Positions 22,464-26,892 of a stretch of DNA of 34,170 nucleotides are shown here, piece after piece. Location: positions 1 through 34,170 of the forward strand of contig JAAFJH010000015.1 of the NCBI GenBank assembly GCA_013298875.1. Direction: 5' to 3'. A model generated the notes under the pieces. It was not told where the DNA came from, searched no databases, and worked only from the letters and a program-made list of their open reading frames with translations. The stretch's first letter is position 1. Every line of letters starts with the position of its first letter. The translations under genes and the position numbers were made by a program. This DNA is from Synechococcales cyanobacterium bin2.concoct.b11b12b14.033 (lineage in GTDB: Bacteria > Cyanobacteriota > Vampirovibrionia > Caenarcaniphilales > Caenarcanaceae).

Positions 22464-24113
22464 CTAACTACTACTCGGAGAAAGTTTTGGAAGTTTTAAT
22501 TGGCTCGACACTGTTTCAATCAAAGAACTTAAACCAGTTTTATTTTCGGCTGAAACGCAAATAGCCTCTGGGAATGAGCTTTTTAATTTTTCGAGTTCTT
22601 CTGTGGAAAGCAAATCTACTTTATTCAAAACTAAAAGCTCAGGATAATTTTCAACTTTTAGCTGTTCATAAATAGACTTAATAACTTTTAAATGTTCAAA
22701 TCTATTCGGATGGGAAGCGTCTAAAACCGTTAATATTAAATCTGCTTCGCCAATTTCTTCTAAGGTCGCTTTAAAAGCATCAATTAAAGTTGTGGGTAAA
22801 TTTTGAATAAAGCCCACTGTATCACTCATCAAAAAATTATAAGGGCTTTTAATCTCCCTAATAATCGGGTCTAAAGTGGCAAATAATTTATTTTCGGTTA
22901 TAACATGCGAATTGGTTAAAGCATTAAATAAAGTTGATTTACCCGCATTGGTATAGCCCGCAATTGAAACTAAAGGAATTTGTCTTTGCTTGCGTAAACG
23001 TCTTTGAACCGAACGAACCTGGCTTAAATCTTTTACTTTATTTTCCAAAACATGAATTCGCTCTTTTATATGGCGTCGCATTACTTCCAGCTTGGTTTCT
23101 CCTGGGCCACGTGTTCCAATTCCACCACCTAATTGGCTTAAACCTATTCCTTTGCCCACTAGTCTAGGAGCCATATATTTTAATTGTGCTAATTCAACTT
23201 GTAATTTCCCTTCTTCACTCAAAGCTCTTTGGGCAAAAATATCCAAAATTAATTCGGTGCGGTCAATTACTTTTATCCGTCCACCAATTTCTTGCTCAAT
23301 ATTTCTTTTCTGAGAAGGCGTCAATTCCGAGTCAAAAATAATTAAATCGGCTTCTTTGTCTTCAGCAATTAATTGAATTTCCTGTATTTTCCCCGCTCCA
23401 ACATAAAATTTAGAATCTGGTTTATTAATACTTTGAGCTATTTGCTCGCAAACTTCGGCTCCCGCTGTGGTAGTTAAACCATAAAGTTCACTAAAACTAT
23501 CTTCATAATTTGGTTTACTCGATAATCCGACTAAAATAGCTTTTTCTTTTTGTTTAGTTTCAACTGTTTCAGACAAGCTGGCCAAGTCTTCTTCAATATC
23601 TTTAATTAATTCTGGTAAGTCAATTTCACCAATTTCCCGAATGGTTTGTTTTTCCTCAATTTTCCAACGTTCCTGAATATCGCTAGTTAAATAGCATAAT
23701 TGTCCATAGTCGACATAAGCTAAAGAATCCCCTTTGGATGAGCTAAATTCGCTATTTTTATCGGCATGAATGAAAAGCATTAAGTCAAATCTATATCTTT
23801 TCAAAAACAATAATTCAGCTTTGGTAATTTCCTTTTTTGGGCTGACAACAATTAAACGCAATTGAGCCAAACGGGCTAAACCTTCCCGGGAGGCTTGGGC
23901 TTTTACGCTGCTAATTTTATTTAATTCACCAATATAATACTCCCGCACTTTGCCTTGCCGGTCGATTAAGCAGCTAATTTGTATTTTTAAAGTAAAGGCT
24001 AATTTGGCTATTTCCGAGGCAAGTTCAGTCGAAATTATTTGCCGAGCCATAACGCGCCGATCAACTAATTTTTGTAAAGATGTTGAATCAGTTTTAGATA
24101 ATTTTAAAGTCAA
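22464..24113 (-). CDS. hflX: GTPase HflX, long N-terminal form
   Basis: About 549 residues from TTG 24113, chosen because AAGG lies 8 bases before it; TTG at 24170 or 24134 would lengthen it and there is no ATG until 24050. An N-terminal domain of about 190 residues ([39 protein letters not shown]) precedes the usual HflX domain ([25 protein letters not shown]). The linker [15 protein letters not shown] is diagnostic. GTPase motifs are G1 GYTNAGKS, G3 DTVGF and G4 NKVD. The same long form is known from cyanobacteria and some Firmicutes. HflX splits stalled or hibernating ribosomes and binds the 50S. It is divergent from the DUF4435 ATPase gene. Confidence 0.94.
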
Positions 24114-24228
24114 ATTTATTACCTTAATACACAAAGTCCTTCTTTTAAATTTAGCAAAAATAAATGCCAAAAAGCTTTGTTAATTGATAACTTGAAAGTT
24201 AATTGATTGTTTTTAGTAAAATAAAATA

Positions 24229-26019
24229 ATGTTTATTAATAAATTACAACTAAAAAACTTTAAACGCTTCACTGATTTAACTATTGACTTAATTTCAGCC
24301 CAAAACGAAAGTCCACCGAAACTGGTTTTATTAATTGGTGCAAATGGCTGCGGAAAGTCTTGTATCTTTGATGCTTTTGAAAGTGTTAATGGAATAATAT
24401 CTAATGAAAAATTAATAAGAGCTTTTGAAGATTTACAAGCAGAAAAAACAAAAGGTTATTTATCAGGTTTAGGTTTACCAGATCATGATTACTGCTTAAA
24501 AGAAAAAGATATAAAAAACGAATATGAAATAATTATTGATTTTGATAAAGAAAAAATTTTTAACATCCATTATAAAGGTTCTTCAGAAACTAATATAGTT
24601 GGACAATCAAGTATAGAAACTAATTTGAATGTTGGTAATTATTTTTATGGTAGAACTGCATTTAGAAATATTATTGATTTAGAAACAAAGTTTAATGCTG
24701 ATGAATACGGTGAAAAAGACGTACAAAAAGTTATAGAAAAAAACTTAGATAAACCAAGCAGATTAATTGACTTAGATAAACGCTGGGACGGAGATATTTT
24801 ATATTGCTTTAAAGAAGAAATTAACCGTAAAGAATTAACAATAGAAATTAATCAAAGTCTGAATAGTATTTTTGAAAATAATCCAACTGGGCATTTTCAA
24901 ATTGAAAGTATTAGAAGTGAAATAGGTCGCTCAATTAAATTAACATTGGAAGTCTTGATTAGAAAAGGTAATTCAGTTTTTCCATATGAATATTTATCAG
25001 CTGGTGAAAAGCAATTATTTACAATTTTATTAAACTTACATTTACGCAAAAAGTACATTGAAAATACTATTATTTATTTAGATGAAATTGATTTACATTT
25101 GAATACAGCTATTCAAGCGGATTTACTAAAAGAAATTACTGAAAAATTAATACCTGATAATTCGCAAGTTTGGGTAGCCAGTCATTCGCTTGGTTTTATT
25201 GATTATGCGAGGCAGATAACATATAAATATGATGAAATAACCGAAACCGAAGTAGAAATAAAGAAAGTAATTATTGACTTTGATAGTTTAGATTTTGATC
25301 AAGAGCAAGTATTAAAACCAGCAAATAAAGATGACTTAAATATTTTTACAGTACCAATTCCAATTAGTTCAATTGAAAATATAGTTCAACTACCTTCAAT
25401 TATTTTATGTGAGGGCAAAGATTCTAAATACTATTCAGGACAAAATAGTAAACAATTCTTTGGAGTAAAAGATAAGTTTAATGTTTTAGAGTGGTGCTGG
25501 AGATTTAAATGCTTAGGAATTATTGACAAAGACTATTTATTCAAAACTGAAAGTATAAAATTAGAAAATAAATTTAAAGGAAAATTAAAAGTTTTAAAAT
25601 ATTATTCAATCGAAAATTATTTGCTCCATCCAGATAATTTAAAAGAATACGATTCAAGCTTAGATTTAAATGTGTATCAAAAAGAAATTACTGAAGCCAA
25701 GAATGAATACTTGCAAAATAAAATTTCTGACTACTTTTCGCAAATAAGGTCTAATTATAAAATACTAAAATCCAGAAAAGATGAAGGTCTAAAACACGAT
25801 TGGTTAGTTGAAATGGAAGACTCCTCTGAAGTTTTGAATTTATTTAAATCAGATAATTTTGAAATATTTTATGAGTTTTTTCCAATTAAAGACGAAAACA
25901 AAAAAATAAAATCTATTCAGGAAATCTTAAAAAATACAAACAAAAGTAAAGAGAGCTTATATTTAGAACTCTCTCAAACAAATTGGTTTAAAACTAAAAT
26001 TAGTGAGGTTTTACAATAA
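24229..26019 (+). CDS. Fused ABC/SMC-like ATPase and DUF4435 (TOPRIM-like) protein, PARIS-type defence candidate
   Basis: 596 residues. N-terminal ATPase of the AAA_15/AAA_21 type: Walker A GANGCGKS (37-44), ABC-type signature YLSAGEKQ (255-262), Walker B IIYLDE (Asp285-Glu286), and His319 in VASHSL. The C-terminal part matches DUF4435: Glu395-Gly-Lys-Asp398 after a hydrophobic strand (IILCEGKD), IIDKD with Asp433 and Asp435, and YYSIENYLL with Glu462-Asn463. These are the likely metal-binding acids of a TOPRIM-like nuclease. In the PARIS anti-phage system AriA (AAA_15/21) and AriB (DUF4435) carry these two domains, and merged versions are known. It stands alone, divergent from hflX, 3 bases from the convergent lpxI stop. 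Defence role is an inference from domain order; an OLD-family relative is the main alternative. Confidence 0.8.
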   Translation: MFINKLQLKNFKRFTDLTIDLISAQNESPPKLVLLIGANGCGKSCIFDAFESVNGIISNEKLIRAFEDLQAEKTKGYLSGLGLPDHDYCLKEKDIKNEYEIIIDFDKEKIFNIHYKGSSETNIVGQSSIETNLNVGNYFYGRTAFRNIIDLETKFNADEYGEKDVQKVIEKNLDKPSRLIDLDKRWDGDILYCFKEEINRKELTIEINQSLNSIFENNPTGHFQIESIRSEIGRSIKLTLEVLIRKGNSVFPYEYLSAGEKQLFTILLNLHLRKKYIENTIIYLDEIDLHLNTAIQADLLKEITEKLIPDNSQVWVASHSLGFIDYARQITYKYDEITETEVEIKKVIIDFDSLDFDQEQVLKPANKDDLNIFTVPIPISSIENIVQLPSIILCEGKDSKYYSGQNSKQFFGVKDKFNVLEWCWRFKCLGIIDKDYLFKTESIKLENKFKGKLKVLKYYSIENYLLHPDNLKEYDSSLDLNVYQKEITEAKNEYLQNKISDYFSQIRSNYKILKSRKDEGLKHDWLVEMEDSSEVLNLFKSDNFEIFYEFFPIKDENKKIKSIQEILKNTNKSKESLYLELSQTNWFKTKISEVLQ

Positions 26020-26022
26020 TGT

Positions 26023-26829
26023 TTAAATAGCTAAAAAAGCGATTCCTAATTTATTGGCCAAAGCAATAGTTTTTTCTTTTTCGGCAATAAAAGTTGAATT
26101 AGCTTCAATAGCCAAAACCGTTCCTTTGTATTTAGCAATATTTTTAATAGTTTTGCAGCCAACCGTGGGCAAATCAAATTTATCAGATTGTTTTTTCCAA
26201 GGTATTTTAATAATAACAGCTCCCGAGCGAGCTAATTGACAACCTCTCTGAATAGTTTGATCAGTTCCTTCCGCAGCTTCAAAAGCCATAACTGAGCTAT
26301 TTTTAACGACTATTGTTTGGCTTACTTCCATTTCCGACGCCTTTTTAGCCATTTGAAAACCGTATTCAATATCTTTTTTTTCACATTCTGTTAAATTTCT
26401 TGTCGTAAAAACTTCTTTGGGAGACAATAAATGGCTTAAAAACTTACTTTGTGGAATTATAGTTAAGCCTTGTTCATCGCAAATTTGAGCTAATAAATGA
26501 TGAAAAGTATTATCTTCTAAATTTATCATTCTCTTAAAATATGATTGCCCCAAAGAGTCCAAGAAAGGAATTTGAGAGATTGCCCACAATTTATGAACTT
26601 TCCCGATAAAAACTATTTCTTTTATATTGTTAGCTTTAAAATAATCAAAGCATTTTTGGCTTTGGGTCGGGCTAATCATTTTAGCTTCAGTATATTTTCC
26701 TTGCAAATCAAAAAAAGACTTCCAATTAGTAGCTAAAATATAAGTTTCATAGTTTTGATTTTGAGCATTTATGGATAATTCCCGCGGCAGAGAGCCTTCT
26801 CCAGCAATAATACCTAATTTTTTTTGCAT
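26023..26829 (-). CDS. lpxI: UDP-2,3-diacylglucosamine pyrophosphatase LpxI
   Basis: 268 residues from ATG 26829, which puts KLGIIAGEGSLP at the N terminus as in the family; upstream in-frame options are ATG 26841, ATG 26862 and TTG 26886. Conserved stretches include VFIGKVHK, FLSHLLSPKEV, FDLPTVGCKTI and VLAIEANSTFI. LpxI performs the fourth step of lipid A synthesis, cleaving UDP-2,3-diacylglucosamine to lipid X and UMP, in place of LpxH. Its presence means LPS is made. It lies downstream of the yceI-like gene on the same strand and its stop is 3 bases from that of the convergent ATPase gene. lpxA/B/D, common neighbours, are not here. Confidence 0.9.
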   Translation of the reverse strand: MQKKLGIIAGEGSLPRELSINAQNQNYETYILATNWKSFFDLQGKYTEAKMISPTQSQKCFDYFKANNIKEIVFIGKVHKLWAISQIPFLDSLGQSYFKRMINLEDNTFHHLLAQICDEQGLTIIPQSKFLSHLLSPKEVFTTRNLTECEKKDIEYGFQMAKKASEMEVSQTIVVKNSSVMAFEAAEGTDQTIQRGCQLARSGAVIIKIPWKKQSDKFDLPTVGCKTIKNIAKYKGTVLAIEANSTFIAEKEKTIALANKLGIAFLAI

Positions 26830-26892
26830 TTGACTGAGCATTAAATTAAAATTTGCTTTCATTCCACCATAAAACTTTTCACCCAAATCTTT

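Follow-up and report, generated by a model that had tools for sequence, protein, structure and literature searches.

Single-gene fusions of an AAA_15/AAA_21 ATPase with a DUF4435 domain have been reported together with PARIS (PMC9122126), so the single-gene architecture is already known. In the two-gene form of PARIS, a hexamer of AriA holds AriB, a phage trigger frees it, and the dimeric AriB cuts tRNA (PMC12409363, PMC11455837). Class 1 OLD genes, in which an ABC ATPase precedes a C-terminal TOPRIM domain, are described as solo genes that lie apart from other defence genes, and it is unclear whether single-gene AriAB fusions act like OLD or like PARIS (PMC10568477). With the toxin domain covalently tethered in such fusions, its means of activation becomes a question in itself.

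Here we examine a fusion gene in a contig of 34,170 nucleotides (the window) from a genome of the Caenarcaniphilales, a Melainabacteria-related group, as a sequence-only reading of the window had suspected. The gene (24229..26019, + strand) starts with ATG, runs for 596 codons without an internal stop, and encodes an ABC/AAA_21 ATPase fused to a DUF4435-related, TOPRIM-like domain. That reading had named a complete set of ATPase motifs and three acidic motifs behind them in one protein, and all of these lie at the residues it gave. What it missed is that sister genomes carry tandem arrays of related genes and that the window gene, like the array copies, is a mosaic. Arrays of mosaic copies with swapped sensor and cutter halves suggest a bacterium that mixes and matches its defence proteins.

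The ATPase half carries Walker A (G37-ANGCGK-S44), the signature (Y255-LSAGEKQ-262), Walker B (D285-E286) and the switch residue H319. Nine of these residues (G37, G42, K43, G259, E260, K261, D285, E286 and H319) are invariant in a 65-member family alignment. Pfam AAA_21 (E 9e-14, 52.7 bits), AAA_15 (32.3 bits) and SMC_N all score over their cut-offs, those for a PARIS ATPase being 27 bits for AAA_21 and 32 bits for AAA_15. Motifs and profiles thus mark the N-terminal 350 residues with certainty as an ABC/SMC-like ATPase. This half divides into a conserved N-terminal block with Walker A (codons 1-52; 24229..24384, +), a variable region inside the ATPase lobe that would be the sensor (codons 53-245; 24385..24963, +) and an ATPase core with the signature, D285-E286 and H319 (codons 246-350; 24964..25278, +). 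The PADLOC AriAB profile, which has no curated cut-off, matches the window protein with 67.6 bits over a best stretch of residues 201-327 only, in the ATPase half, and in some homologues its alignments extend into the C-terminal half. The AriA-like core also gives a weak match in the PDB. In structure searches with the whole AlphaFold2 (AF2) model, the best matches are the retron PtuA and Septu ATPases, and it is the ATPase that drives them; these proteins have an AAA_21 ATPase in common with ours but depend on a reverse transcriptase or on an HNH protein encoded separately, neither of which was found beside the window gene.

The C-terminal half begins behind a linker (codons 361-390; 25309..25398, +). 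Codons 371-390 have a pLDDT of only about 50-59 in the AF2 model, so the TOPRIM-like domain is probably flexibly tethered. This domain (codons 391-475; 25399..25653, +) contains E395-G-K-D, D433-K-D435 and S-I-E462-N-Y464. Every sequence of the 65-member alignment has E395, D433 and N463, and at least 90% of them have D435, E462 and Y464, a level of conservation far beyond chance; position 396, G in the window protein, is usually N. A helical tail of the effector half follows (codons 476-578; 25654..25962, +), with R507 and Y510 conserved, and then a conserved C-terminal end, TNWFKTKISEVLQ (25963..26016, +), whose DNA includes GAGG, a possible ribosome-binding site for a next array copy.

Assignment of this domain depended on the family rather than on the single protein. 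PF14491 (DUF4435; cut-off 27 bits) gave no match to the window protein at E up to 1, and none to its C-terminal part at E up to 10; the C-terminal 230 residues alone had no direct Pfam match and no sequence match in the PDB. A profile of 63 homologous C-terminal domains, when compared by hhalign with a six-member DUF4435 profile, scored 55.6 (E 1.9e-7) against at most 17.3 for reversed and column-shuffled controls, and the comparison aligned CEGKD, IDKDY and YYSIENY with the DUF4435 motifs. Four of the 63 domains match PF14491 directly (best E 7e-5). Against part of AriB the same family profile scored weakly, 23.2 compared with 19.9 for the best of 30 shuffles. Judged on profile-level homology and the common catalytic motif, the domain is a remote member of the DUF4435 superfamily, and the fusion of an ATPase to a DUF4435/TOPRIM-related domain, as first proposed, is borne out. 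The AF2 model, whose pLDDT averages 85 over the full protein and 89 over the C-terminal domain, points the same way: strands at residues 26-30, 44-48, 64-67 and 88-90 of the C-terminal model alternate with helices, E395 ends strand 1, D433 and D435 follow strand 3, and this order fits TOPRIM. In the structural comparison that the sequence-only reading called for, Foldseek searches of the PDB and of viral models with the C-terminal model returned no significant match, AriB and any other TOPRIM included; the fold assignment consequently rests on profile homology and topology.

How far the protein is PARIS can be answered in part. Given the DUF4435 profile match and the common E…DxD…ENY residues, we regard it as a divergent AriAB-like, or merged-PARIS-like, ATPase–TOPRIM fusion. 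As in merged PARIS (PMC9122126), an AAA_15/AAA_21-type ATPase is followed by a DUF4435-related domain in one protein, but in the window protein, as in most homologues, the DUF4435 half has diverged beyond the reach of PF14491, and the family typically has EN, not EG, at the first acid. The motif set of AriB in two-gene PARIS (E / D-R-E / S-L-E-N-Y) is shared; AriB, however, is freed from the AriA hexamer, whereas the TOPRIM-like domain here is covalently attached. Of the suggestion that the gene is a merged PARIS, the ATPase component stands, with both AAA profiles over cut-off; membership as a whole is not established, since PF14491 fails, the best AriAB match of the window protein lies in the ATPase half, and the model of the C-terminal domain has no significant match in the PDB, AriB included. 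By analogy the protein may be called PARIS-like in outline, and we do not file it as PARIS.

The window gene could also be of class 1 OLD type. Its product would then be an ABC ATPase with a TOPRIM domain that needs no partner and attacks DNA, by nicking or degradation, rather than a sensor-released RNase. The one-gene architecture is the same, and class 1 OLD genes, like most homologues of the window gene, stand alone and mostly without defence neighbours (PMC10568477). We nevertheless consider this unlikely, as Pfam scans list no OLD TOPRIM family for the C-terminal domain of the window protein or among the families shared by the 63 homologous domains, whereas DUF4435 is listed for some of the latter, and the hhalign comparison, which covered DUF4435 and AriB, gave a match to DUF4435.

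The gene lies between hflX (22464..24170, − strand, divergent; HflX profile match, 446 bits) and lpxI (26023..26886, − strand, convergent, with its stop codon at the junction), in agreement with the initial annotation; the LpxI match, at 84.6 bits, is under its NCBIfam cut-off. Further neighbours that were checked are metabolic or housekeeping genes (argG, upp, nuoB, hisC, pgi and a gene for a GGDEF protein). In keeping with the sequence-only reading, the nearby genes that were scanned include no other defence gene, nor did PADLOC assign any of seven more genes of the window to a defence family. No tRNA that could be an insertion target lies near the gene, and a search of the homologues' neighbourhoods found no conserved partner gene. 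The window assembly (G000; 93% complete, 145 contigs) has one copy, its sole other match being weak and confined to the ATPase core.

From a scan of 84,980 species genomes 80 loci were kept. Five of them are from Caenarcaniphilales MAGs, and the others are full-length or nearly full-length homologues of roughly 30-37% identity; full-length solo homologues number about 80. They are patchily distributed, mostly in Bacteroidota, with a few in Parabeggiatoa, Planctomycetes, Verrucomicrobia and others. When five genomes with such a homologue were searched in full, each had a single copy. No relatives were found on viral contigs. Most homologues are wedged tightly between housekeeping genes with flanks that vary by genus, and not in defence islands. 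Near one end of a contig in genome G044, a distant solo homologue has AbiEi/AbiEii-like genes in its vicinity (L026 5095-8411). Because hflX and lpxI are not adjacent in other family members, they could not serve as an empty site, and Mucilaginibacter was used instead. There, a DoxX-like gene and dppB flank all six copies, and among the 30 nearest species read the gene is missing from this site in 29, the one filled site being that of the query's own genome. In most of the other loci read, only a few bases separate doxX from the dppB that comes directly after it; some are arranged differently. Comparison of L039 7979-9632 with L163 2649-2656 shows a clean one-gene insertion between the doxX-like gene and dppB in which the downstream start codon overlaps the stop codon of the inserted gene.

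These distributions bear on whether the protein might instead do housekeeping work, as an ATPase that maintains or repairs the chromosome. Its ATPase is SMC/RecF-like and its neighbours in most genomes are housekeeping genes, yet it occurs in only 4 of the 382 genomes of its class, it is missing from the Mucilaginibacter site in 29 of the 30 nearest species read, and its sensor and effector diverge strongly with exchange of modules. We consider a housekeeping role very unlikely. The gene family is accessory, as had been anticipated, and other genera have empty sites.

In two other MAGs of the window's family, G001 (ZE-3nov15-135) and G003 (ZE-3nov15-198), whose names point to one sample series, copies are arranged head to tail with a stop/start overlap, TAATG, in which one base is common. 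GAGG in the coding end of one array copy lies upstream of the next start, and on this sequence evidence we propose that the copies are translationally coupled. A search for a 26-nt junction sequence, allowing up to three mismatches, gave six sites in G001 and five in G003. G000 has a single site, which lies where the window gene ends; genomes G002 and G004 have no matches, and a control pattern gave none. At the window gene the corresponding sequence, TAATGTTTA (26017..26025, +), has a stop codon overlapping ATG as at array junctions, and this array-like sequence ends exactly where the lpxI-flank sequence common to G001 starts. The match past the stop codon is only six bases, and reading the site as an array end is therefore suggestive. 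Arrays are seen in these two MAGs only, and most stop at contig edges, so the visible copies may be only part of an array.

The arrays lie in different positions, beside der, sulP, mutS and hisI. They are missing at the der and mutS sites of G000 and the mutS site of G001, and at the sulP site of G003 only the last codons of a copy are left. One alternative reading is a mainly selfish mobile unit made of one gene, which would enter the genome at gene boundaries irrespective of what it does to the cell. The precise insertion between the doxX-like gene and dppB with its stop/start overlap, the flanks that differ among genera, the different places of arrays in sister genomes and the tail remnant beside sulP would all suit a unit of this kind. 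The six of six Mucilaginibacter copies at one site, however, are what inheritance and loss predict, and no integrase, terminal repeat or target duplication was seen; we judge a primarily selfish unit to be quite unlikely.

When the window gene, as copy A, was compared with the array copies, its ancestry changed twice along its length. Codons 1-52 are C-like (14 of 18 informative sites), codons 53-350 are B-like (264 of 299; 264:35), and codons 351-596 are C-like again (231 of 258; 27:231), the second crossover lying near codons 350-353. The N-terminal block and the TOPRIM-like domain thus have C-like ancestry, whereas the variable sensor region, which is swapped as a block between copies, and the ATPase core are B-like. 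Fisher tests of the two switches gave p 1e-9 and 2e-84; copy B changes from J-like to H-like (p 4e-59) and copy C from I-like to A-like (p 3e-56). As the segments were delimited with the data already in view, the p-values serve as description only, though the contrasts are extreme. The window gene is itself a mosaic.

Trees of the two halves agree with this. In the head tree A, B, H and J group together and C and I separately; in the tail tree A pairs with C and B with H, and J falls among homologues of other phyla. Approximately unbiased (AU) tests reject both the head groups when kept in the tail and A with C in the head (p 3e-7 to 1e-54). No conclusion was drawn from the positions of copies F and D, whose branches in the tail tree are long. 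Codons 1-52 are nearly homogenised among the array copies (83-94% nucleotide identity), with a synonymous codon identity of 76-95% that exceeds both a 57% usage baseline and the value for unrelated sensors, as recombination or gene conversion would give. In 72 members from other genomes, distances correlate at 0.63-0.81 within the head (sensor, mid and core) and at 0.78 within the tail, but at only 0.41-0.56 between head and tail, which is consistent with a wider exchange of modules.

Mosaics of this sort might also be produced by assembly, if short-read metagenome assembly had joined heads to other tails at the conserved blocks. All three Caenarcaniphilales genomes are fragmented, G001 and G003 are by their names MAGs of one sample series, and the arrays stop at contig edges. 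The longest exact matches, however, are 51 nt between A and B, 49 nt between A and C and 39 nt between B and C, which is little for an assembly graph to join on; identity between the segments of A and their partner copies is about 88-97% and not 100%; the window gene is interior to its 34-kb contig; and a weaker head-tail discordance recurs in the 72 members from many genomes, isolates included. Chimaeric assembly as the source of the mosaics is distinctly unlikely.

The explanation we favour, and regard as fairly probable, is that the window gene encodes an abortive-infection-type ATPase to which a TOPRIM nuclease is tethered, and that recombination has diversified such proteins by exchanging their sensor and effector modules. 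The SMC/ABC-like ATPase, as a dimer or oligomer, would bear the variable sensor insert and, on the flexible linker, the DUF4435 (AriB-like) TOPRIM nuclease, which the ATPase scaffold would keep inactive in the resting state. On meeting an infection signal the sensor would cause the ATPase to rearrange, so that the TOPRIM domains meet on their tethers and become able to cut. A covalently bound domain cannot be released as AriB is in two-gene PARIS, and its activation would have to come from rearrangement or dimerisation. The target, by analogy with AriB, would probably be RNA such as tRNA, and less likely DNA. Genomic context lends the defence role limited support, in that a PDC-M29A/B-like pair lies directly upstream of one G001 array and AbiE genes lie beside the G044 homologue.

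Diversification may proceed through three conserved stretches, namely codons 1-52, codons 246-350 approximately, and the C-terminal end, which would act as recombination zones in the tandem arrays and thereby let sensor and effector modules be re-paired between copies. The window copy would be one such recombinant, now alone between hflX and lpxI. In type I restriction systems, hsdS shuffling likewise relies on conserved blocks that let variable modules be re-paired. The likeness is one of analogy only, as the copies here are tandem and head to tail, and no recombinase or inverted repeats as in hsdS shuffling were found. More tentatively, with a probability that we put somewhat short of even, the Caenarcaniphilales arrays could be a combinatorial repertoire that re-pairs sensors with nuclease effectors into new trigger-target combinations within a genome, with modules imported from distant phyla. 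If shuffling is real and selected, it would amount to a bacterial immune repertoire diversified by module exchange. The natural mosaics pair the same sensor with different TOPRIM domains (A, B and J) and the same TOPRIM domain with different sensors (A and C; B and H), and could tell which half sets the trigger and which the target. No description of tandem module-shuffled arrays of such genes was found in the open literature, as far as our partial coverage reached, and the shuffled arrays appear to be new.

Several further features of the array genomes were recorded. In array copy F (L022 3929-5572) the effector half, with the motifs EGENYK, IFDTDA and IENLF, diverges strongly from the others, and the TNWF end conserved at the C-terminus is missing, which suggests that a TOPRIM of another type was imported. 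A 24-nt in-frame insert in copies B, D and K was considered as a functional motif and rejected, as it is a dispersed genomic repeat. This GC-rich repeat, CCCCCAGCCCCCTAAAGGGGG, is scattered through all the family genomes but one, four out of five, with 36 sites in G002 and none in G004, and is inserted in frame near the N-terminus of the three copies, where it encodes APQPPKGG (L020 3546, L021 1894, L025 152). The PDC-M29A/B-like candidate defence pair, an AriA-like ATPase and a small protein (L022 1977-3889), ends 39 nt before the first G001 array gene. Contig C32 of G003 (L024 5789-15416) carries, from its ORF translations, an apparent type III CRISPR locus with Cas10-like, RAMP-like, Cas1 and Cas2 proteins, on the same contig as an array end.
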